Positions 355 to 11,774 of a stretch of DNA of 64,000 bases are shown in pieces. The stretch spans positions 1 through 64,000 of the forward strand of contig NZ_JAABLQ010000002.1 of NCBI RefSeq assembly GCF_009915765.1, read 5' to 3'. A model generated the notes under the pieces. That model saw only the letters and a program-made list of their open reading frames with translations. It did no database searches and was not told the origin of the DNA. Source of the DNA: Pannonibacter sp. XCT-53. GTDB lineage: Bacteria; Pseudomonadota; Alphaproteobacteria; Rhizobiales; Stappiaceae. Within the stretch, counting starts at the first letter, position 1. Each line of letters opens with the position of its first letter. A program made the translations under genes and the position numbers.

Positions 355-960
355 TCAGAACGTCGGCGGTGTGCAGACCCACAGGATGCTGGCCGGTTCG
401 CTGCCGATGTTGCGGTAGGAATGCGGGATGTTGGAGCGGAAGCAGAACCCGTCACCGGCCTCGAGTGCATAGGTCTGGTCGTTGAGATCGAGGGCCACCT
501 GGCCTGCGAGCACGTAGCCGACTTCCTCGCCTTCATGGGTGATGGAGCCGCCGGAGCGGCCGCCGACCTCGAGATGATGGATGTTGCATTGCAGGAGGTG
601 GCCCTCCTTGTAGGGAATAATCCGCTCGAGCATGACGCCGGTGGTGTGCCCGGTGCTCCCCTCGAGCGAGATGAACGGGCGTTGCCCCTTGCGGAACACC
701 ACGTTGTCCTGCGGGCCCTGCTCCTCGAACAGCCACGAGATGTTGGTCTCGAGCGCATGCACCAGCCGGTGCACCAGCGGCAGCGACGGCATCACCTTGC
801 CGTTCTCGATCTTTGACAGCAGGCTCTCGGAACAGTCGCCGCGCTCGGCAAGCTCCTTCAGCGTAAAGCCCTTGGTCTGGCGCGCCAGCCTGAGCTTGAT
901 GCCCAGATTGCGGCGCGCGTCGTCGAGATCCACCGCTGAAGCCGCCTTGCTTCGTGTCAT
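355..960 (-). CDS. XRE-family transcriptional regulator with C-terminal cupin domain
   Basis: A 201-residue regulator with an N-terminal helix-turn-helix of the Cro/C1 type (about residues 15-70, with LKELAERGDCSESLLSKIENG) and a C-terminal cupin-2 sensor (about 110-195, with HEGEEVGYVLAG and a following LEAGDGFCFRSNIPH). This architecture is common in regulators of catabolic and polyamine-related operons, where the cupin binds a small effector. The ATG at 960 is chosen because AAGGGGA lies just upstream and homology begins soon after; a longer in-frame extension upstream is arginine-rich and unconvincing. The gene is last in the leftward block that carries the peptide importer, 183 bases after the SDR, so it may have its own promoter. 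The effector is unknown. Confidence 0.85.
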   Translation of the reverse strand: MTRSKAASAVDLDDARRNLGIKLRLARQTKGFTLKELAERGDCSESLLSKIENGKVMPSLPLVHRLVHALETNISWLFEEQGPQDNVVFRKGQRPFISLEGSTGHTTGVMLERIIPYKEGHLLQCNIHHLEVGGRSGGSITHEGEEVGYVLAGQVALDLNDQTYALEAGDGFCFRSNIPHSYRNIGSEPASILWVCTPPTF

Positions 961-1143: not shown

Positions 1144-1902
1144 TCAGTGCGCCATGCCGCCGTCGACCATCATCGATTTTGCCGTGATGTAGCGCGCTTC
1201 CTCCGAGGCGAGGAAGACATAGATCGGCGCCACATCTTCCGGCGTGCCCTGCCGGCCGAGCGGCACGACGCGGCGCACGATCTCGGCATGGGCCTCGACA
1301 CCGCCCATCAGGTCGATGGCAGGGGCGTTGAACGGCGTGTCGATCCAGCCCGGCAGCACCGAGTTGACGCGGATGTTGTGCGGGGCCAGCTCCTGCGCAA
1401 GCGCCACCGTGAAGGCGATCACCGCGCCCTTGGCCGCGGCATAGGACGCCATGCCGGCAGCGCCGCGCAGACCCGCCAGCGACGAGGTGGTTATGATGGC
1501 GCCACCGCCCGCCCGCGCGATCGCCGGACCTGCATATTTGGCGGCAAAGAACGTGCCGCGGGCATTGACGTCGAAGATCGCGTCCCAGGTCTCCGCATCG
1601 AACTGTTCGATCAGCCCGGTGCGCTGCAGGCCGGCCAGATAGACCAGCGTGTCGAGCCCGCCGAGGGTCGCTCCGGCCGTCTCGACGACGGACCGCACCG
1701 AGGCCTCGTCGCGGACGTCGCACTGGAGCGCGATGGCCGCGCCGCCGGCCGCGCGGCACAGCGCCGCGCAGTCTTCGGCCGCGTCCTTGTTGATGTCCGC
1801 GATCACCTGGCTTGCGCCGTTGCGGGCGAACTCGATGGCCGTGGCCCGGCCGATGCCGGTCGCTGCACCGATGAGGAGGGCTCGCTTGCCGGAAAGTCTC
1901 AT
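1144..1902 (-). CDS. SDR family NAD(P)-dependent oxidoreductase
   Basis: A classical 252-residue short-chain dehydrogenase. The cofactor motif GAATGIG sits at residues 12-18, the active-site Ser is at 140/141 (TTSSLAG), and the catalytic YxxxK is Tyr154-Lys158 (SYAAAK); Asn113 of the tetrad is present. The usual NNAG motif is replaced by YLAG. AAGGAG stands seven bases before the ATG. It lies 26 bases after the M20 hydrolase gene, so it probably belongs to the same leftward operon as the peptide importer and would oxidise or reduce a product of the imported compound. The substrate cannot be told from sequence. Confidence 0.88.
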   Translation of the reverse strand: MRLSGKRALLIGAATGIGRATAIEFARNGASQVIADINKDAAEDCAALCRAAGGAAIALQCDVRDEASVRSVVETAGATLGGLDTLVYLAGLQRTGLIEQFDAETWDAIFDVNARGTFFAAKYAGPAIARAGGGAIITTSSLAGLRGAAGMASYAAAKGAVIAFTVALAQELAPHNIRVNSVLPGWIDTPFNAPAIDLMGGVEAHAEIVRRVVPLGRQGTPEDVAPIYVFLASEEARYITAKSMMVDGGMAH

Positions 1903-1928: not shown

Positions 1929-3122
1929 TCAGGTGCGTGTGCCGGCACCTGGGGCGTCCAGTGCCTCGCTGGCGACCTCGATCCAGTAGCGTGCGCCGAT
2001 CGGGATCAGGTCGTCGTTGAAGTCGAAGTCGGGATTGTGCAGCGCCGTGTCGCGGCCGTTGCCGATCCAGGCATAGGCGCCGGGCCGGGCCTGCAGCATG
2101 AAGGCGAAGTCTTCCGACGCCGTGCTTGGGGTGAACTGCTCGACAATGTCCAGACCACCGGGCAGCCGCCGGGCGGCCCTGACCATCGTCGCCGTGGCGG
2201 TTGTCTCGTTCAGCGTCACCGGATAGGCCGGCTTGATGTCGAGATCGATGGCCACGTCGTGGCTGCGGGCGATGCCCTCGGCGATCTCGCGCATGCGCCG
2301 GTGGGCGATGGCGCCGGCCGTGTCGTCGAAGTAGCGCAACGTTCCCTGCAGGTCGACCTGGTCGGGCAGGGCATTGAGCGACTGGCCGCCATGGATCTGG
2401 GTCAGTGACAGCACCAGCGGATGGTGCGGGTCGATGGCGCGCGAGACGATGTTCTGCAGGCTTCCGGCCAGCGCGCCGGCCGCGACGATGGAATCCGTGC
2501 CGAGATGCGGCATGGCCGCATGCACGCCCCGCGCCCGGATCCGGAAGGAAAACAGGTCCATCGCCGCCATCATGGCACCCGGCCGCACGGCGACCTGGCC
2601 CAGCGGCAGGCCCGGCCAGTTGTGCAGCCCGAAGATGCTGTCCATCGGATAGCGGTCGAAGAGGCCGTCCTCGACCATCTTCTGCCCGCCGCCCGCGGCC
2701 TCTTCCGCCGGCTGGAACACGAAGTGGATGGTGCCGGCCAGACCTGCCTGGCGGCTCAGATAGTCGGCGGCGGCCAGAAGCATCGTCATGTGGCCATCAT
2801 GGCCGCAGGCATGCGAGACCCCGGGCCGGAGCGACCGCCAGGGCACGGTGCCCGTCTCGGGGATCGGCAGCGCGTCCATGTCGGCGCGCAGGCCGATCGT
2901 GCGGCCCGGCCCGGTGCCCCGCAGCGTGGCGACAAGGCCGGTGCCCGCCAGGCCTTCGGCCACCTCGAGCCCCATGTCGCGCAACCGTCCGGCGACGAAG
3001 GCGGCGGTCTCATGCTCGGCGAAGGCCGTCTCCGGGTGGCGGTGCAGATGCTGGCGCCAGTCCCGGTAGATCGGGAGACGCTCGGTGAGGAAGCGGGTCG
3101 GATCCGGGGTTTCTCGGGTCAT
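1929..3122 (-). CDS. M20 family amidohydrolase (M20D, hippurate hydrolase / IAA-amino acid hydrolase-like)
   Basis: A 397-residue cytoplasmic metallohydrolase with the M20D metal-site motifs: DMDALPIPE near residue 80, HACGHDGHMTMLL near 105, QPAEEAAGGG near 135, and a late STASEDFAFML with the C-terminal metal-ligand region. Members cleave N-acyl amino acids or amino-acid conjugates. The ATG at 3122 is two bases after the stop of the upstream ABC ATPase gene, so translation is probably coupled. Its place in a Dpp-type importer operon suggests it hydrolyses the imported amide or peptide-like compound. A longer in-frame upstream reading overlaps the ATPase gene and is proline/arginine-rich, so it was not used. 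Confidence 0.88.
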   Translation of the reverse strand: MTRETPDPTRFLTERLPIYRDWRQHLHRHPETAFAEHETAAFVAGRLRDMGLEVAEGLAGTGLVATLRGTGPGRTIGLRADMDALPIPETGTVPWRSLRPGVSHACGHDGHMTMLLAAADYLSRQAGLAGTIHFVFQPAEEAAGGGQKMVEDGLFDRYPMDSIFGLHNWPGLPLGQVAVRPGAMMAAMDLFSFRIRARGVHAAMPHLGTDSIVAAGALAGSLQNIVSRAIDPHHPLVLSLTQIHGGQSLNALPDQVDLQGTLRYFDDTAGAIAHRRMREIAEGIARSHDVAIDLDIKPAYPVTLNETTATATMVRAARRLPGGLDIVEQFTPSTASEDFAFMLQARPGAYAWIGNGRDTALHNPDFDFNDDLIPIGARYWIEVASEALDAPGAGTRT

Positions 3123-3124
3123 GG

Positions 3125-4987
3125 TCACGTCTCGAGGCAGGCGGCGGTGCGCCCGGCGGGGGCGGGCAGCAGGGAGGACGGCGGCAGGTGACCGGGCTCG
3201 AGATGGCAGGCCGCCCCGTTGCCCTCGGCAGTGGCAACAAGATGCGGGTCCTCGGTCGCACAGCGGGCGGAGGCGAACGGGCACCGCGTGCGGAACGTGC
3301 AGCCGGCCGGGATATGGATCGGATCCGGCGGCTCGCCTTCCATCAGGTAGGTCTCCGGCAGGAAAGGCTTGGGCTCGACCGTCAGGACGGAGCTCAGCAA
3401 CGTGCGGGTATAGGGATGGGCAGGGTTCTCGAAGATCGTGTGATTGTCGGCAAGCTCGACGATGCGGCCGAGATACATCACGCCGATGCGGGCACAGACG
3501 CGCCGCACCATGGCAAGATCATGCGAGATGTAGAGATACGTGATGCCGTGGCGCTTCTGCAGCGTCTCGAACAGGGCGAGAAGCCGCGCCTGCTCCACCT
3601 GGTCGAGCGCCGACAGCGTCTCGTCCAGGATCATCAGGCTTGGTTCCAGGATCAGGGCGCGGGCAATGTTGATGCGCTGGCGCTGGCCGGCCGACAGCCC
3701 CACCGGCAGGTTGTCATAGAGATCCGGTGACAGTCCCACTTCGGTCATCACGTCGCGCACGCGCTGTTTCAGCGCCGTGCCGCGCGCCAGCCCGTGGATG
3801 CGCAAGGGCTCCTCGATGGTGCGGCCGATCGAGGCATGGGCGGGGATGGCGTTGTAGGGGTCCTGCAGCAGCAGCTGGAACCGCCGCCGCATCTCCAGCA
3901 GCGGCGTGCCCTTCAGCCCGGCAATGTCGCGGCCCTCGACCTTGATCGAGCCCTTGTCCGGCTGCTCGATGGAGGACAGGAGCCGGGACAGGGTGGACTT
4001 GCCGCAGCCCGATTCCCCGATCAGGCCGAAGCTCTCGCCGCGCCGCACATCGAAGCTGACGCCGCGCACGGCGCGCACGCGGTTCTCGCCGAAGAGCCGG
4101 GTGCGGTCGCGCACGACATAGGTGCGCTCGACGTCGCGCACTTCCAGCACGATGTCGTTGCCCGGGCTCGGTTCCGGGGTTTCGGCCTCGGCCCACAGCC
4201 GGGGCACCTTGGCGATCAGCTCACGGGTGTAGGCATGCTCCGGCGCGGCCGTGAGGCGTGCTGCCGGCTGCCGTTCGACGATGCGGCCGGCATTGATGAC
4301 GATGACATCGTCGGCCGTGTCGGTGACGACGCCGAGCGACGAGGAGATGAAGACGATCGACGTCTCGAAGGCGCTCTGCAGGTCGCGCAGCAGCCGGATG
4401 ATCTGCGCCGCCACCGTCACGTCCAGCGGCTGGGTGATGTTGTCGGCGATCAGGAGCTTCGGATTGGACACCAGCGCGTCGACGATCATCGCCCGCTGCA
4501 TCATGCCGCCGGAGAACTGGAACGGGTACTCGTCGAACCGGCGAACGGCCGAGGGGATGCGCACCGCGTCGAGCGTGTCGATGACGCGCTTGCGGGCATC
4601 CGCCTCGGAGATGCCGGGCTCGACTTCCTTGAGTTTCTCGACGATCTGGTGGCCGACCGGAATGGTCGGATCGAGCGCGATGGTCGGGTTCGCGCCGATA
4701 TAGGCGATCTCGCGGCCGCGCAGGTTCGCCATCGCCTGTTCCGGCAGGGCGAGAAGGTCGCGGCCCTGATAGAGGACGCGGCCGGAAGTCAGGCGCAGCG
4801 GCTTGTGGATCCAGTTGATCAGCGCGTTCGAGAGCACCGTCTTGCCCGAGCCGCTTTCGCCGATGATGCCGAGCACGGAGCGCGGCGCCACGTCGAAGCT
4901 GACATCGGAGAGGATCGGGCGGGATCCGGCCGCGCTGTCGAGCACGACCGACAGGCTCTCCACCCGCATGATTGGTTCGGTCGCCAT
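3125..4987 (-). CDS. Dipeptide-type ABC transporter, fused double ATP-binding protein (DppD-DppF-like), with degenerate first domain
   Basis: A 620-residue protein with two ABC domains in tandem, energising the permeases just upstream. Domain 1 has a normal Walker A (GESGSGKT, 43-50) and signature (FSGGM, 158-162), but the Q-loop Gln is Ala99 (YIGANP), the catalytic Glu after Walker B is Asn183 (IADNITQPLDV) and the H-loop His is Ser216 (FISSSLG). Domain 2 keeps Walker A (GESGCGKST, 324-332), Q375, D455-E456 and H489, but its signature is LSAGQ (431-435). A Cys-rich tail (C563, C569, C576) is typical of Opp/Dpp ATPases. ATG 4987 shares one base with the stop of the preceding permease gene. 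The pattern predicts one canonical and one degenerate ATP site in the head-to-tail sandwich. Confidence 0.9.
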   Translation of the reverse strand: MATEPIMRVESLSVVLDSAAGSRPILSDVSFDVAPRSVLGIIGESGSGKTVLSNALINWIHKPLRLTSGRVLYQGRDLLALPEQAMANLRGREIAYIGANPTIALDPTIPVGHQIVEKLKEVEPGISEADARKRVIDTLDAVRIPSAVRRFDEYPFQFSGGMMQRAMIVDALVSNPKLLIADNITQPLDVTVAAQIIRLLRDLQSAFETSIVFISSSLGVVTDTADDVIVINAGRIVERQPAARLTAAPEHAYTRELIAKVPRLWAEAETPEPSPGNDIVLEVRDVERTYVVRDRTRLFGENRVRAVRGVSFDVRRGESFGLIGESGCGKSTLSRLLSSIEQPDKGSIKVEGRDIAGLKGTPLLEMRRRFQLLLQDPYNAIPAHASIGRTIEEPLRIHGLARGTALKQRVRDVMTEVGLSPDLYDNLPVGLSAGQRQRINIARALILEPSLMILDETLSALDQVEQARLLALFETLQKRHGITYLYISHDLAMVRRVCARIGVMYLGRIVELADNHTIFENPAHPYTRTLLSSVLTVEPKPFLPETYLMEGEPPDPIHIPAGCTFRTRCPFASARCATEDPHLVATAEGNGAACHLEPGHLPPSSLLPAPAGRTAACLET

Positions 4988-5886
4988 CACAGTTGTCCCT
5001 GGAGCACGAGGTTGCGCGAGCGCTCGAGCACGCCGCCCATCAGGTTGAGGCTGGTGAGGGCGAGGGCGAGCAGGAAGCCCGGCACGATGGTGATCCACCA
5101 GGCGTTGAGCAGATACTGGGTGCCGGCCGAGATGATCGTGCCGAAGGTCGGCGTCGGCGGCTGGATGCCGATGCCGATGAAGCCGAAGATCGCCTCGAAG
5201 ATCATCATCCGCGCGATGTCCAGCACGGCAACGAAGGCAATCGACGGCAGGATCGACGGGGCAATGTGCAGCGCCATGATCCGCAGGTCCGATGCGCCGA
5301 GGATCTTCGCCGCGCGCACATACTCCTTCTGACGCTCGGCGAGCGTGACCGAGCGCGCGACACGGGCGTAGGCAGGCCAGCTGGCAAGCACCAGAACGGC
5401 GATCACCGTGAAGGCGTTCGGCCGCGACATGCCGAGGATGGTGATGGCGAGGATGACCACCGGGATCGACATCTGCACGTCGGTGATGCGCATCAGCACC
5501 ACATCGACCCAGCCGCCGCGATAGCCGGAGTAGATGCCGATGGCGCAGCCGATCACGAACATGATGACCACCGAGACGATGCCGATGGCGAAGGCGTTGC
5601 GCAGGCCGATCAGCGAGCGCAGCAGCAGGTCGCGGCCGAGCTGGTCGGTGCCGAGCAGATAGGGATAGCGCCCGCCCTCCATGAAGATTGGCGGCAGGAA
5701 GCGGTCGGCCACCGTGATCTTCGTGGCCGACGCGTCGATGACGAACGGGGCGACCACGGTCAGCACGGCGAGGGCTGCGAAGATGAAGAAGGCCACCTTC
5801 ATCTCGGTCGTCGCCCAGGCGCCGGCAAGGATGCGGTGGGCGACCGAACGGCTGCGGGGCCGGGCAGAGAGAGCGATGTCAGTCAT
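4987..5886 (-). CDS. Peptide-type ABC transporter permease (DppC/OppC-like)
   Basis: A 299-residue inner-membrane permease with an N-terminal OppC-type segment, the LLGTDQLGRDLL motif (about residues 77-88) characteristic of DppC/OppC/GsiD, and the EAA loop region (KEYVRAAKILGASDLRIMALHI) that docks on the ATPase. Multiple hydrophobic segments follow. It is the second permease in the operon, nine bases after the DppB-like gene, and its stop overlaps the start of the fused ATPase. It would form the translocation channel with the DppB-like subunit. Confidence 0.92.
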   Translation of the reverse strand: MTDIALSARPRSRSVAHRILAGAWATTEMKVAFFIFAALAVLTVVAPFVIDASATKITVADRFLPPIFMEGGRYPYLLGTDQLGRDLLLRSLIGLRNAFAIGIVSVVIMFVIGCAIGIYSGYRGGWVDVVLMRITDVQMSIPVVILAITILGMSRPNAFTVIAVLVLASWPAYARVARSVTLAERQKEYVRAAKILGASDLRIMALHIAPSILPSIAFVAVLDIARMMIFEAIFGFIGIGIQPPTPTFGTIISAGTQYLLNAWWITIVPGFLLALALTSLNLMGGVLERSRNLVLQGQL

Positions 5887-5895
5887 CCGGGGTCC

Positions 5896-6882
5896 TCAGA
5901 ACTTCAGGCGGCGGTCGATCGTCGTCGAGGCGAAGTCGACGAGGATGTTGATCAGCACCAGGACGGCGCTGGCGAGGATGGCAACCGCCTGGATGATCGG
6001 GAAATCCCGCTGGAACACGGCGTTGATGGTCAGCAGCCCGATGCCCGGGAACGAGAAGATGTATTCGACCACGAACAGGCCGCCGAGCAGCATGCCGATC
6101 ATCTGCGCGCTGAAGACATTGAGGAGCGGCACGGCTGCGTTGCGGACCACGTGCCGGTAGATCATCTTGCTGCGCGGGATGCCGCGCACCTGGCCGACGT
6201 TGAAATAGCCTTCCTGCACGTTCGCGGCGATCGACACGGCGATGGCGCGGATCAGGACCGGCGACATCTCGATGGCCACGACGATGGCCGGGATGATCGC
6301 ATAGGCGATGCCGCGATAGCCGATGGCCGGAAGCAGCCCGGATTTCGCCGACAGCAGGTAGATCAGCACCACCCCGACCCAGATGTTGGGCAGCGAGACG
6401 AAGAAGGACGAGATATAGAGCCCGAGCTTCTGTTGCCATCGTCCGGCATTGAGGCCGGCGGCGAGCCCGATCGGGATGGCGATTAGGAAGGCGAAGACAA
6501 GGCCGAGGCTGGCGAGGATCAGCGTGTAGGGCAAGGCGGTGAGGATGAGGTCCATCACCGGGGCGCGCTGCGACAGGTCCGGCGCGCCGTCCTGAGAGCC
6601 GCCGCTCGCCCCGCCCTGCTTGCCGCGAATGAAGGAGTGGCCGAAGTCGCCGCTGGCGACCTGCACGATGAAGCGGCCGAACTGCACGGGAATGGGGTCG
6701 CGCAGGCCAAGTTCGCGCGCCGTCTCCTCCATGGCCGTCGCCGTCGCCATTGGTCCGAGAATGATGCGGATCGGGTCACCCGGCGCGATGCGCAGCAGCG
6801 TGAAGATGACGAAGGCAACGAGCAGGACGATCAGCAGTCCCTGGCTCAGGCGCCTGACGAAGAACTCGATTGCAAATGCCAT
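5896..6882 (-). CDS. Peptide-type ABC transporter permease (DppB/OppB-like)
   Basis: A 328-residue permease. The N-terminal segment (RRLSQGLLIVLLVAFVIFTLL) and the following RIAPGDPIRIILG are hallmarks of the DppB/OppB family; the EAA-like loop (GYFNVGQVRGIPRSKMIYRHVV) and the C-terminal transmembrane helices are present. An insertion of about 25 hydrophilic, Gly/Ser/Gln-rich residues (around 85-110, FIRGKQGGASGGSQDG) sits in a periplasmic loop. It follows the binding-protein gene after a 102-base gap that holds a strong hairpin (6934-6960). Confidence 0.92.
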   Translation of the reverse strand: MAFAIEFFVRRLSQGLLIVLLVAFVIFTLLRIAPGDPIRIILGPMATATAMEETARELGLRDPIPVQFGRFIVQVASGDFGHSFIRGKQGGASGGSQDGAPDLSQRAPVMDLILTALPYTLILASLGLVFAFLIAIPIGLAAGLNAGRWQQKLGLYISSFFVSLPNIWVGVVLIYLLSAKSGLLPAIGYRGIAYAIIPAIVVAIEMSPVLIRAIAVSIAANVQEGYFNVGQVRGIPRSKMIYRHVVRNAAVPLLNVFSAQMIGMLLGGLFVVEYIFSFPGIGLLTINAVFQRDFPIIQAVAILASAVLVLINILVDFASTTIDRRLKF

Positions 6883-6984: not shown

Positions 6985-8547
6985 TCAGGAAAGGGTCGCC
7001 TTGCTCAGGTCGACCGGCCCGTTCGGGAAGAACGTCACGCCGTCGAGCTTGCTGCTCATGGCGCGCAGGAACACGCTCGAGAACAGGGAGATGCTCGGTG
7101 CCTTGGCGGCGATCAGCGGCAGCGTTTCGGTCTGCAGCACCTTCAGGCGCTCGTCCTGCGTCAGGGCATTGCGCTGCTTGTCGAGCGAGGCATCAATTTC
7201 GGCATCGTTGATGCCGTTGATCAGCGCGAAGCTCGAATGGTAGTTCGGGCGCAGCACCAGATCAGGCTCCGGCGACCCGGTGAGCCAGCCGACATCGACG
7301 ATATGGCCGGGCCCCTGGCCGTCGGCGCGGCGGTAGAGCTGCTCTTCCCAGGCGGCGGGCTCCAGCGTGGTGAGCTTCACCGGGAAGCCCTGCTCCTGCA
7401 GCATCGCCGAGATGAGCTCGCCGTATTCGCGCGTCTTCGGATAGAAGCCGACCGAGGTGATGTACTCGATTTCCGGCAGGCCCTGGCCGTTCGGGTAGCC
7501 GGCCTCGGCCAGCAGCGCCTGCGCCTTCTCCGGGTTGTATTCCGGGTAGCCCTCGACGTCGGTGAAGCCGAACTTCACCGGCGACAGGTGGCAGTTGGAC
7601 GCCTGGCCTGCCTCGCCGACAATGGCGAGAACCTGATCGCGGTCGATCGAGTGGAAAGCGGCGAGGCGCACGCGCACATCGTCGAACGGCGGCTTGTTGC
7701 AGCGGAAGTGCAGGTACTTGTTCTCGCTGGACAGCGAGCGGTCGGTCTTGATGCCGGCTTCCTTCGACAGCGAGACATACTGCTCGGGCTCGAGGCGTTC
7801 GGTCAGGTGGTACTGGCCGTTCAGCAGGCCGAGCACGCGGGTGTTGGCGTCCGGCACATAGGCCCAGACCAGGTTCTCGATCGCCGGCTTGCCGCCGTGA
7901 TAGCCGTCGAAGGCCTGGAAGTTGATCTGGTCGCCGGTGGTGCTGACATACTTGAACGGGCCGGTGCCGTTCGGGCGCTGCTTCAGCTTCTCCGGGTTGG
8001 CGACGTCGTCCGCGCACAGGATCGGCAGGAACGAGGACACATACCAGAAGTTCAGCGCAGGATAGCCGTGCGCCTTGGTGGACAGCCGCACGGTGAGATC
8101 GTCGACGACCTCGACATCGACGCGGCCCGGATACCAGGCCGAAGCCGGGCGGCTCGGGTCGGAGGCGTATTCGTAGGTCGCCTTCACGTCCCTTGCGGTG
8201 AACGGCTGGCCGTCATGGAAGGTGACGCCGGCGCGCAGCTTGTACTCGAGCGTGTGCGCGTCGACCTGGCTCCACGACACCGCGAGATCAGGCAGGATTT
8301 CGCCCGGATTCTCGGGTGTCATCGGGCAGCGGGTCAGCCGGCCGAACAGGAAGCCCTCCGCCGTGATCTGGGGCGCGACCGTGTGCGAGCTCGGGTCCCA
8401 CGAGCCCGTCACCGTGCCGGCGGCCGCAAAGACCAGCGTGTTGGAGGCCTGTGCAAAGGCCTGCGAGAACAGGTTGGGCGCGCCGATGGCTCCCGCGACG
8501 CCGATCGCCGCCGTGCCCGCGAGAAATTGTCGCCTGGTCGTCTTCAT
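6985..8547 (-). CDS. ABC transporter substrate-binding protein, SBP_bac_5 (peptide/nickel type), Tat-exported
   Basis: A 520-residue periplasmic binding protein of the DppA/OppA family. The N-terminus MKTTRRQFLAGTAAIGVAG is a twin-arginine signal with likely cleavage near SQAFAQA; family blocks such as the AVSWSQVDAHTLEYKLRAGVT region and GTGPFKYVS follow. The start at 8547 is fixed by GGAGGGAG upstream and the Tat motif; an upstream in-frame extension is not protein-like. It heads the importer operon (SBP, DppB, DppC, fused ATPase, M20, SDR). Ligand unknown; the operon's M20 enzyme hints at an acylated amino acid or short peptide. Confidence 0.92.
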   Translation of the reverse strand: MKTTRRQFLAGTAAIGVAGAIGAPNLFSQAFAQASNTLVFAAAGTVTGSWDPSSHTVAPQITAEGFLFGRLTRCPMTPENPGEILPDLAVSWSQVDAHTLEYKLRAGVTFHDGQPFTARDVKATYEYASDPSRPASAWYPGRVDVEVVDDLTVRLSTKAHGYPALNFWYVSSFLPILCADDVANPEKLKQRPNGTGPFKYVSTTGDQINFQAFDGYHGGKPAIENLVWAYVPDANTRVLGLLNGQYHLTERLEPEQYVSLSKEAGIKTDRSLSSENKYLHFRCNKPPFDDVRVRLAAFHSIDRDQVLAIVGEAGQASNCHLSPVKFGFTDVEGYPEYNPEKAQALLAEAGYPNGQGLPEIEYITSVGFYPKTREYGELISAMLQEQGFPVKLTTLEPAAWEEQLYRRADGQGPGHIVDVGWLTGSPEPDLVLRPNYHSSFALINGINDAEIDASLDKQRNALTQDERLKVLQTETLPLIAAKAPSISLFSSVFLRAMSSKLDGVTFFPNGPVDLSKATLS

Positions 8548-8866: not shown

Positions 8867-9763
8867 TCACACCAGGCCCACCACCCGGACAAGGTCGCCG
8901 CAGAACATTTCCACGCCGAGCCCGCGGACACGGCGTTCACGGCAGACGACATGGAGCACGTTCCAGGCGAAGTCGCCGTCGCGCACCGGCAGGTGGACCA
9001 GCAGTCCGCGCCGGATGTCCTCGGCCACGTCGAAGCGGCTGAGAAAGACGATGCCGTCGCCGCTGGCCGCGATCTGCTTCATGGCCTCGATGGAGTTCGT
9101 CTGGAAGGCCGGCTCGGCGGTCAGGCCGGCGGCGGTGAAGCTGCCGGCAATCAGGTCGTGCATCACCATCCGGCGGTCCGGGAAGATCAGCGGATGGGCG
9201 AGGCAGGCTGCCAGCGTTACGCTGTCCTGCCCGGCGAGAGGGTGGGCCGGCGAGACCACGGCACCAAGCCTGGCATCAAAGGCGGCCACCGTTTCCAGCG
9301 CCGCATGGGCCGGAAGGTTGAAGGCAAGGCCCAGATCGGCCTCGCCCGCCGCCACGGCCGCAACGATGTCCGTGCGGGCCATCACCCGGATCGTGATGCG
9401 GATGCGCGGGTGACGGCCGGCGAACAGCGCGGCCGCCTTCGGCACGATGCCGCCGGCCAGCCCGTTCATCGTCGCCACGATCACCTCGCCGCTCTCCAGC
9501 GTCGTCAGGTCACGGATTTCCGCTTCCACCTCGCTGTACTCGCGCAGGGTGCGCCGGATGTGGGCAAGGAGGATCTCGCCGGCCGGTGTCAGGCGCAGGC
9601 CGCGCGGCAGGCGCTCGAACAGCGGCGCGCCGATCACTTGCTCCAGCTGCAGCACATGCTTGTTGATGGCCGATGCCGCCACGTTCAGCCGGTCGGCCGC
9701 CGCGCGGATCGACCCGCTGCGGGCCACTTCGTCGATGTAGCGCAGGACCCGCGAGTGCAGCAT
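8867..9763 (-). CDS. LysR family transcriptional regulator
   Basis: A 298-residue LysR-type regulator: N-terminal winged HTH (about 1-60, with GSIRAAADRLNVAASAINKHV) and a periplasmic-binding-protein-like effector domain (about 90-290). AGGAGG lies six bases before the ATG at 9763. It is co-directional with the peptide importer downstream and divergent from the adenine-deaminase-like gene, so it could control either. A LysR-type inverted repeat (9777-9797) lies directly in front of it, suggesting autoregulation. Confidence 0.9.
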   Translation of the reverse strand: MLHSRVLRYIDEVARSGSIRAAADRLNVAASAINKHVLQLEQVIGAPLFERLPRGLRLTPAGEILLAHIRRTLREYSEVEAEIRDLTTLESGEVIVATMNGLAGGIVPKAAALFAGRHPRIRITIRVMARTDIVAAVAAGEADLGLAFNLPAHAALETVAAFDARLGAVVSPAHPLAGQDSVTLAACLAHPLIFPDRRMVMHDLIAGSFTAAGLTAEPAFQTNSIEAMKQIAASGDGIVFLSRFDVAEDIRRGLLVHLPVRDGDFAWNVLHVVCRERRVRGLGVEMFCGDLVRVVGLV

Positions 9764-10046: not shown

Positions 10047-11774
10047 GTGAACGCCCTGGAAACGCAGCACTACGCCAAGGTCCGCACCATTTTCGACATC
10101 CTGCATGGCAGGGCCGAGGCGGATCTGCTCATCAAGAACCTCAACATCCTCGATGTGCATGGCGAGACCGTCTATCAGGGCTCCATCCTGGTGCATGACA
10201 AGCGCATCGTGGCGCTGTCGCCGGACGAAAGCATCCTCAAGGTGCGCGAGGTTTTCGACGGCGAGGGGCTCTACGCCATTCCGGGCCTGATCGACGCCCA
10301 CATCCATTTCGAATCGCAGCTGGCCCATCCGACGGCGCTGGCGGAGGCGATGGTGCCCTGCGGCACCACAACGATCTATGCCGAGTGCCTCGACCTCCTG
10401 AGCGCGGCCGGCGAGGAAGGCGTCGAGGCGGCAACGGCCCTGTTCAAGGACCATGACAAGCTGCCCTACCGCCTGTTCGCCTTTGCCCCGGGCAAGAAGA
10501 CGGCCGCCCATGTCACCCAGGCGGTGCTGCAGATGGAACCGGTGATCGGCCTCGGCGAGTTCGAGCATTTCACCTATTCCTCGGGCGACGACGACGACTT
10601 CCGCAAGGCGGCCTGGGTGCGGGCCAAGGGCGGTTTCATGAACGGCCACTGGGGTGTCACTGCCCTGTCCGACATGGTGCTGAACTACCTGCCGGCGATC
10701 GGCGTCTCCAACAACCACGACGTCTGGAACGAGGACGACATCGAGAAGTCGATCCGCTACGGCTTCCCGACCCACATCAAGTTCGGCGTCGGCTCCGCAG
10801 AAGTGATCAAGGTGCTGCTGCGCGCCATCGTCGACCGCAAGTGGCCGACGGACAACTTCATGCTCTGCACCGACAACATCTCGGTCGAGCGGCTGCTGAA
10901 GTCGGGCCACATGGACTGGATCATCGGGGTCTGCGCCGACATGGGCATCAACCCGATCCATGCCATCAAGATGGCCACCTACAACACCGCCCGCTCCTTC
11001 CACATGGAGGACCAGATCGGCTCGCTGACGCCCGGCAAGTTCGCCGACATCGTGCTGACCGACAGCCTGTCGCGCATCAATCCCCGCTACGTGTTCAAGG
11101 ACGGCGAGCTGGTCGCGAAGGACCGCAAGCTGCTGAAGAATGCCGAGATCGACTACTCGGGCATGTGCAAGGCCGGGGTTCCGGGGCTCGACACGCTCCG
11201 GGCGGAGCAGCTCGACATCGTGCCGCTGGAGATCTCGGCCGACGGCACGCAGGCCAAGGTCTATCTGTTCGATGTCTACGGTCGCGGCCACGCCCGGTTC
11301 TTCCAGGAAGTCTGGGTGCCCTATCGTGATGGCCAGGTCGTGCCCGAGCTGGACGGCGTCCGTTACAGCCGCATCTCGGTCGTGCAGCGTTACCCCAGGG
11401 GCGAGCGGCATGTGGTCAACGGCCTGTTCAAGGGCGTGCGCATCGACCGTGGAGCAGTGGCGACCTTCTGGCCGGCACCCAAGCCCTATTTCGTCGCCAT
11501 CGGCAACGACAGCGCGGAAATGTGCCATTGCCTGAAGCAGGTCGACGGCTATTCCGGCGCCTGCGTGGTCACCGAGAACCTGCAGCAGAAGGCCGTCATG
11601 CCGCTCGAGATCTATGGCGTCATGGCCAACATGACCGTCGCCGAGCTCACCGCTGCTGCCGGCGCCATCGACGCGGCGCTGGAGGAGATGGGCAACCGCA
11701 ACGAGGGCGAGCCGGTCGTCAACAAGCTGCTCAGCCTGTTCATCTCGCTGCACCGCTTCCGCTTCATGGCGTGA
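10047..11774 (+). CDS. Adenine deaminase-like amidohydrolase
   Basis: A 575-residue metal-dependent hydrolase of the adenine deaminase family (normal length 550-600). The first metal motif is DAHIHFES (near 88), a Glu/His region GEFEH follows, then NNHDVWNEDD aligning with the DHE region of Ade, LCTDNIS near 275 for the late metal Asp, and IKMATYNTARSFHMEDQIGSLTPG with the ADIVLTD end of the barrel. The C-terminal half matches the adenine deaminase C-terminal domain. The start is GTG at 10047, six bases after CGGAGG. Motif spacing differs from classical Ade (FES for IESS, TDN for TDD), so the true substrate may not be adenine. It pairs with the membrane protein gene downstream. Confidence 0.8.
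   Translation: MNALETQHYAKVRTIFDILHGRAEADLLIKNLNILDVHGETVYQGSILVHDKRIVALSPDESILKVREVFDGEGLYAIPGLIDAHIHFESQLAHPTALAEAMVPCGTTTIYAECLDLLSAAGEEGVEAATALFKDHDKLPYRLFAFAPGKKTAAHVTQAVLQMEPVIGLGEFEHFTYSSGDDDDFRKAAWVRAKGGFMNGHWGVTALSDMVLNYLPAIGVSNNHDVWNEDDIEKSIRYGFPTHIKFGVGSAEVIKVLLRAIVDRKWPTDNFMLCTDNISVERLLKSGHMDWIIGVCADMGINPIHAIKMATYNTARSFHMEDQIGSLTPGKFADIVLTDSLSRINPRYVFKDGELVAKDRKLLKNAEIDYSGMCKAGVPGLDTLRAEQLDIVPLEISADGTQAKVYLFDVYGRGHARFFQEVWVPYRDGQVVPELDGVRYSRISVVQRYPRGERHVVNGLFKGVRIDRGAVATFWPAPKPYFVAIGNDSAEMCHCLKQVDGYSGACVVTENLQQKAVMPLEIYGVMANMTVAELTAAAGAIDAALEEMGNRNEGEPVVNKLLSLFISLHRFRFMA

Follow-up and report, generated by a model that had tools for sequence, protein, structure and literature searches.

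The window, that is, the whole 64,000-nucleotide stretch of Pannonibacter sp. XCT-53 DNA that was analysed, encodes a fused Dpp-type ATPase of 620 amino acids in which catalytic residues of one composite ATP site have been replaced and the other site is consensus. Comparison of the homologues indicates that the ATPases with this degenerate site are a selected, co-varying subfamily and represent neither decay nor a local oddity. We read the system as a PepT importer that would take up amide-linked compounds and run on one hydrolysing site, and we consider it likely that the composite sites of this PepT/Dpp-type, binding-protein-dependent importer ATPase are permanently unequal, with site 1 as an ATP-filled clamp and site 2 as the site of hydrolysis.

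Architecture of the ATPase and its operon

The ATPase gene lies in a tight row of minus-strand genes encoding a substrate-binding protein (SBP), DppB-type and DppC-type permeases, the ATPase, an M20 amidohydrolase, a short-chain dehydrogenase (SDR), and an HTH-cupin regulator (table 1). The best matches of domain 1 were OppD/DppD models (residues 7-278 or 6-266), and those of domain 2 were DppF/OppF models (277-589); therefore, the protein looks like a DppD-DppF fusion. PF00005 was found in two stretches, PF08352 scored 84.2 bits against a cut-off of 27.1, and NF008453 was passed with 462.5 against a cut-off of 408. The two ABC_tran domains and the oligo_HPY C-terminal region, together with the SBP family 5 protein and the two BPD_transp_1 permeases encoded alongside, place the protein among the Dpp/Opp (PepT) importer ATPases; homologues of these three partners adjoin the ATPase gene at 44 of the 45 related loci described below, and the exception, L045, lies at the end of a 5.9-kb contig. 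A single oligo_HPY stretch was found in the ATPase, with none after domain 1. The four cysteines Cys563, Cys569, Cys576, and Cys594 of the C-terminal region were invariant in 41/41 clade rows, and because of this invariance a [4Fe-4S] cluster is likely on the DppF-like half, by analogy with E. coli DppF.

Several better characterized ATPases were considered as possible identities. The protein failed the NCBIfam equivalog cut-offs of the microcin C (YejF) importer ATPase (425.1 vs. 834 bits) and of the glutathione (GsiA) importer ATPase (413.5 vs. 1077 bits). Fused ATPases of the RbsA/NupO type carry the label CUT2. They are marked by the absence of the second Walker A Lys, and this type was rejected because Lys330 is present in 64/64 rows of the clade and the degenerate domain is the first one. 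Other folds were set aside as well, since the best 50 rows of the fold comparison were ABC ATPases by title. The structure model of the ATPase (pLDDT 84.4, pTM 0.82) was made without nucleotide, and the composite-site geometry was taken instead from the available text of PMC7756269. The model aligned over both domains with M. tuberculosis DppD (8wd9; Z 36.5 over 516 residues, rmsd 3.6) and OppD Rv1281c (8j5q; Z 34.0 over 532 residues), which are also single-chain Dpp/Opp ATPases with two nucleotide-binding domains (NBDs) and were the best PDB sequence matches (E 1.9e-101 and E 1.3e-97, respectively). However, these two proteins (u154377 and u146659) differ from the Pannonibacter ATPase in having Gln, Glu, and His in both domains and SGG signatures. 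A second M. tuberculosis DppD entry (u154379) carries Gln at both Glu positions, which were presumably engineered.

Table 1. Genes of the importer operon and its flank, and motifs of the ATPase, in window coordinates
Feature	Position	Strand	Evidence or remark
HTH-cupin regulator, PuuR-like	355..960	-	start inferred
Short-chain dehydrogenase	1144..1902	-	recurrent neighbour in the window's branch
M20 amidohydrolase	1929..3122	-	TIGR01891; PF01546 + PF07687; start inferred
Two-domain fused Dpp/Opp-type ATPase, CDS from ATG to stop	3125..4987	-	domain 1 ~5-262, DppD/OppD-like; domain 2 ~279-536, DppF/OppF-like; then oligo_HPY C-terminal region
Cys563/569/576/594, probable [4Fe-4S] ligands	3206..3301	-	PF08352; invariance; role in a cluster by analogy with E. 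coli DppD/F (PMC12136057, available text)
His489, domain-2 H-loop, intact	3521..3523	-	64/64
Glu456, domain-2 catalytic Glu, intact	3620..3622	-	64/64
Domain-2 signature LSAGQ (431-435), Ala433 replacing Gly	3683..3697	-	A 55, T 9 among 64; G in 43/43 comparators
Gln375, domain-2 Q-loop, intact	3863..3865	-	64/64
Domain-2 Walker A, GESGCGKS (324-331), intact, Lys330	3995..4018	-	K330 in 64/64
Ser216 replacing domain-1 H-loop His	4340..4342	-	S 59, A 4, N 1 among 64
Domain-1 D-loop altered, QPLD (186-189)	4421..4432	-	Q 64/64, P 62/64; comparators T and A 42/43
Asn183 replacing domain-1 catalytic Glu	4439..4441	-	N 63, S 1 among 64
Domain-1 signature FSGGM (158-162), intact, belongs to the putative hydrolysing site	4502..4516	-	sequence alignment
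Ala99 replacing domain-1 Q-loop Gln	4691..4693	-	A 45, S 15, G 3, gap 1 (fragment) among 64
Domain-1 Walker A, GESGSGKT (43-50), intact, Lys49	4838..4861	-	K in 63/64 clade rows; exception is the fragment L109
DppC-type permease	4987..5886	-	last base of stop codon overlaps ATPase ATG
DppB-type permease	5896..6882	-	family models
SBP family 5 substrate-binding protein	6985..8547	-	probable Tat signal; start inferred
LysR regulator, upstream flank of operon	8867-9763	-	
Adenine-deaminase-like metallohydrolase, upstream flank of operon	10047-11774	+	

Residues of the two composite sites across the clade

When the sequence was re-read, A99, N183, S216, A433, and E456 were present exactly as the initial annotation had named them; domain 1 had the normal Walker A (GESGSGKT) and signature (FSGGM) that it described, and domain 2 kept Q375, E456, and H489 but carried the signature LSAGQ. 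To these we add the altered D-loop of domain 1, which reads Q186-P187-L-D in place of the T-A-L-D of nearly all comparators. The aromatic residue of the A-loop was dropped as a further lost element because the comparators also vary at that position. Each ATP site pairs the signature of one domain with the Walker A and B motifs, Q-loop, and H-loop of its partner (PMC7756269); therefore, the losses of Gln, Glu, His, and the signature Gly all fall on site 1, and site 2 retains consensus motifs. Thus, the proposed confinement of the changes to one composite site, made of the domain-1 Walker A/B, Q- and H-loop and the domain-2 signature, is upheld, with catalytic residues lost in one NBD, the signature altered in the other, and the second site consensus. 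The description of this site as fully degenerate was correct for the loss of Gln, Glu, and His but overstated, since Lys49 of Walker A and Asp182 of Walker B, which serve Mg-ATP binding, are kept. On a naive estimate, the Q, E, H, and signature changes would all fall on one of the two sites by chance in about 1 in 8 cases, and the geometry alone is modest evidence. The evidential weight lies in the conservation of the changes and in the altered domain-2 motif being the one that serves site 1.

Homologues were pooled from several searches, which gave 118 rows passing the length rule and 107 distinct rows, the query included, after eleven duplicates (L001, L031, L032, L085, L086, L087, L089, L092, L093, L101, and L116) had been collapsed. 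In 64 of the 107 rows (at least 47% identity; one a fragment), Gln, Glu, and His were missing from domain 1 and Gly from position 3 of the domain-2 signature, and the Q/E/H residues of domain 2 were kept. The other 43 rows (at most 43% identity), which are relatives returned by the searches and form no census of Dpp/Opp ATPases, were canonical, with Q/E/H in both domains and the signature Gly in 43/43. All seven paralogues recovered at E 1e-100 from the window's own genome were canonical. The positions of A99, N183, S216, and A433 co-vary: replacements at all four occur in 63/63 complete clade members and in 0/43 comparators, which exceeds what chance would give. The initial annotation had asked whether close homologues might be normal or the changes scattered over both sites, and neither was seen: every row with at least 47% identity was degenerate, and domain-2 Q/E/H was present in 64/64 rows, an intactness partly conditioned by the search for those loci that were recruited with the two of six peptide patterns that include Q375 and H489 (all six avoid positions 99, 183, and 216). 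The profile searches and the plasmid search were free of such patterns, but were modelled on the clade or the query. The fragment L109, which has non-homologous letters at the N terminus of domain 1, is within the 64-row count and outside the larger tree; L075 lacks the Walker A 1 column. By the length rule, L023, L073, L074, and L076, whose best ORFs are shorter than 500 aa, were excluded from the residue tables, and L078 and L079, for which no match was listed, are absent from them.

The same division appeared in trees and in search scores. A quick unrooted tree built from 106 rows placed all 63 complete degenerate rows on one side of a branch with an SH-aLRT of 100, and a smaller quick unrooted tree gave the same split (45 vs. 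29 rows); both trees were built with a simple model and had long branches flagged. The profile-search scores among 397 genomes of the order were likewise split, with 22 near-full-length matches at 859-1083 bits, one fragment at 640 bits, and the next match at 557 bits. A sequencing error or gene decay in this genome is refuted by the recurrence of these replacements across independent genomes from three classes of Proteobacteria and in 63/63 complete members, and we regard it as scarcely credible.

The strength of selection was compared between the two domains. Among 65 close pairs retained from 820 (pairs with dN of at least 0.13 or dS of at most 0.05 were dropped), the median dN/dS was 0.153 for domain 1 (range 0.027-0.229) and 0.110 for domain 2 (range 0.017-0.212). 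Distant pairs had higher ratios in the fuller pairwise table; they were excluded from these counts, and their ratios are put down to saturation and codon bias. Mean pairwise identity among 41 clade rows was 62% in domain 1 versus 66% in domain 2. Domain 1 is slightly freer than domain 2 yet clearly constrained, and the altered residues are among the constrained ones. Relaxed constraint, in which one working site would suffice and the domain-1 residues would have drifted without any benefit of asymmetry, agrees with the slightly lower conservation and slightly higher median dN/dS of domain 1 and with the variation of the Q-loop (A/S/G) and H-loop (S/A/N) positions among small residues. However, we consider this explanation rather unlikely, given that N183 is found in 63/64 and Q186 in 64/64 rows, that Walker A Lys and Walker B Asp are kept in all complete rows, that dN/dS is low in both domains, and that the altered domain-2 motif belongs to the same site. 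The 107-row table, the tree, and the low dN/dS agree with the earlier proposal that the asymmetry is kept under purifying selection within its own group.

Two side observations concern individual members and relatives. L099, an outlying member from the same order, has Ser in place of the Glu at position 183, the domain-2 signature LTASQ, and a domain-2 D-loop SALG, and is possibly a copy losing function. A distant fused paralogue group in Bradyrhizobium (L069-L072) has canonical Q/E/H residues with a domain-2 D-loop APLD and a Q-loop QHP; the Pro of this domain-2 D-loop resembles the Pro of the domain-1 D-loop in the clade.

Proposed nucleotide cycle and comparison with known transporters

Site 1 joins the LSAGQ of domain 2 to the Walker A and B motifs, Q-loop, and H-loop that the DppD-like domain 1 contributes. 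It should bind Mg-ATP because the Lys and Thr of Walker A and the Asp of Walker B are invariant (Lys49, Thr50, and Asp182 in 41/41 clade rows), and it should not hydrolyse it because the general base, the Q-loop Gln, and the H-loop His are missing; thus, site 1 probably binds Mg-ATP without hydrolysing it and would act as an ATP-filled clamp. Site 2, in which the FSGGM of domain 1 faces the Walker A and B motifs, Q-loop, and H-loop contributed by the DppF-like domain 2, is consensus and would be the hydrolysing site. From the motif residues, we infer that hydrolysis is asymmetric, as the initial annotation had suggested. In the proposed cycle, docking of the SBP would close the ATPase on two ATP molecules, hydrolysis would occur at site 2 alone, and site 1 would retain its ATP as a clamp across cycles. 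Because site 2 would do the hydrolysis, each cycle of closing and opening would cost one ATP. The altered domain-1 D-loop may carry cross-talk between the two sites; as a counterpoint, the alterations of the domain-1 Q- and D-loop may touch the coupling to the permeases or the neighbouring hydrolysing site, and not just hydrolysis at site 1. Loss of the Q-loop Gln is, to our knowledge, not typical of degenerate-site exporters.

Several features of site 1 have counterparts in exporters. In ABCC1, ABCC7, ABCB2/B3 (TAP), and Pdr5, as in the ATPase studied here, the catalytic Glu of NBD1, and in some of them also the H-loop His, is replaced and the signature of NBD2 is changed (PMC7756269, available text); TM287/288, another degenerate-site exporter, likewise combines a replaced NBD1 Glu with a changed NBD2 signature. 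The degenerate sites of human transporters are described in the same text as having a changed NBD2 signature in all cases and often changes in the Walker B Glu and H-loop of NBD1 too, and ATP hydrolysis is asymmetric in degenerate-site exporters (PMC7756269). Pdr5 shares the E-to-N replacement with the ATPase here at its degenerate site (PMC7756269), but its Walker A Lys is lost, whereas that of the present ATPase is kept.

Among importers, the E. coli DppD/DppF and OppD/OppF proteins resemble the ATPase domain by domain and have the C-terminal Cys motif in common with it, but are two chains there and one here. Both DppD and DppF of E. coli have functional motifs, and two ATP molecules have been proposed to be hydrolysed (PMC12136057, available text). 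Without DppA, nucleotide was found in DppF only of the DppBCDF complex, and both subunits bind it when complexed with DppA (PMC12136057); therefore, the DppD half would already be the weaker site in a canonical relative. The initial annotation held that such asymmetry would be unusual for a single-chain importer ATPase. This view finds no support, as RbsA and NupO of B. subtilis are also fused importer ATPases with one degenerate site (PMC11466899, available text), and a fused importer ATPase of this kind is not new. However, RbsA and NupO belong to type II importers and their second Walker A is without Lys (PMC11466899), whereas the degenerate domain of the present ATPase is the first one and retains its Lys. 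These proteins also provide a precedent for a domain 1 without any nucleotide chemistry, which would be a structural or regulatory half, with a single ATP bound at site 2 only, since one site of RbsA and NupO was judged incompetent for ATP binding or hydrolysis (PMC11466899). The invariance of Lys49, Thr50, and Asp182 in the clade, unlike in RbsA and NupO, argues against a nucleotide-free domain 1, which we find quite unlikely. A literature search of mainly open-access papers brought up no account of a Dpp/Opp importer with such a degenerate site. Returning to a clamp at site 1 and hydrolysis at site 2, it seems to us an evenly balanced question whether a subfamily of type I importers, independently of the exporters, has evolved a complete division of labour resembling that of ABCC/CFTR, with a permanent ATP clamp in the DppD half, a single hydrolysing site, and one ATP per imported molecule; such a subfamily would have fixed by mutation the DppF-filled/DppD-empty inequality of the canonical E. 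coli Dpp.

Gene neighbourhood, distribution, and possible cargo

Gene neighbourhoods were compared at 45 loci, comprising 39 loci from the pattern search and six plasmid stretches (L085 repeats the record of L050), with a match rule of at least 40% of the query, E 1e-15, and at most 10 kb of flank. Two sets of accompanying genes were observed. The set of the window included its M20 amidohydrolase at 14/45 loci, the SDR at 17/45, and the cupin regulator at 14/45; the window-type M20 gene was 1.5 kb downstream of the ATPase gene in L048, and upstream on the other strand in L049. The second set included a different M20-fold enzyme (PF01546; allantoate amidohydrolase / hydantoinase-carbamoylase type) at 21/45 loci, which in pRi1724 belonged to the allantoate amidohydrolase subfamily (622 bits vs. 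a cut-off of 424), an APH-type kinase and a choline/ethanolamine-type kinase at 23/45 each, a DeoR regulator at 21/45 (five of these, in L032, L035, L038, L061, and L065, being matches of 29-33% identity away from the ATPase), a HisN-type phosphatase at 14/45, and EutBC at 5/45. An M20 enzyme of one kind or the other was present at 35/45 loci, both kinds together at 0/45, and neither at 10/45 in the stretch examined; among these ten, the stretch of L054 ends soon after the ATPase, L045 is the short contig mentioned above, and L061 has an amidase instead. Pfam scans of guessed ORFs beside the gene left 3/10 without a family, and these three were set aside. Thus, the initially proposed link to M20 hydrolases is real, and the SBP, dppB, and dppC genes are nearly always retained, but the M20 hydrolase was rejected as the defining partner, since the window type accompanies the importer at less than half of the loci and M20 enzymes of either kind are not universal.

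The degenerate ATPase was patchily distributed. At E 1e-170 it was found in 6/398 genomes sampled across the phylum, and a search of the order gave 23/397 genomes, one of which carries a fragment; the genome of the window is counted in both. Within the genus, three of five genomes carry the gene (G000, G002, and G003, with 98-100% identity) and G001 and G004 do not, so that the distribution is patchy even at this level; the ATPase was 99% and 98% identical in the Pannonibacter records L031 and L032, respectively. Record titles assigned 31 of the 62 clade rows with a recorded origin to Alpha-, three to Beta-, and two to Gammaproteobacteria, with one lacking a class and the other 25 without a title-based class. 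Named carriers were Mesorhizobium, Rhizobium, Shinella, Kaistia, Methylobacterium, and Bradyrhizobium, and also Comamonas, Castellaniella, Spiribacter, and Vibrio, some of the records being metagenome-assembled or short contigs. The importer of the clade is also present on Ri and opine-catabolic plasmids, and in pRi2659 (L080), pRi1724 (L081), and pAoF64/95 (L082) it lies in gene clusters that closely resemble one another and also encode an M20-fold hydrolase, two kinases, a HisN-type phosphatase, EutBC, an amidase, and an N-formylglutamate amidohydrolase. The patchy spread would fit horizontally moved catabolic modules.

The common thread of these loci appears to be uptake followed by hydrolysis of an amide or ureido bond. 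The least secure step of our reading concerns the cargo, which is probably a small compound with an amide link that the accompanying M20-type hydrolase or amidase would cleave in the cytoplasm. The ethanolamine kinase and ethanolamine ammonia-lyase of the second set hint at an ethanolamine conjugate, which is perhaps the cargo in that branch, and the cargo of the three plasmid clusters is possibly opine-like or an ethanolamine conjugate. The available text of PMC3333776, PMC10410297, and PMC6341043 names no substrate for the importer genes of the clade; we do not equate the rhizosphere-induced PepT genes of pRL12 reported there with the clade locus.

The clade marks a module of uptake plus amide hydrolysis that is carried on plasmids as well, and the results suggest that an asymmetry of the exporter type has arisen again in importers of the peptide/opine type. 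Whether type I importers need two hydrolysing sites is an old question, which has been studied mostly with artificial mutants. The clade would provide a natural test of whether such an importer runs on one working ATP site, as it offers natural single-chain one-site variants beside canonical paralogues of the same genome, in which stoichiometry and coupling would be directly comparable.
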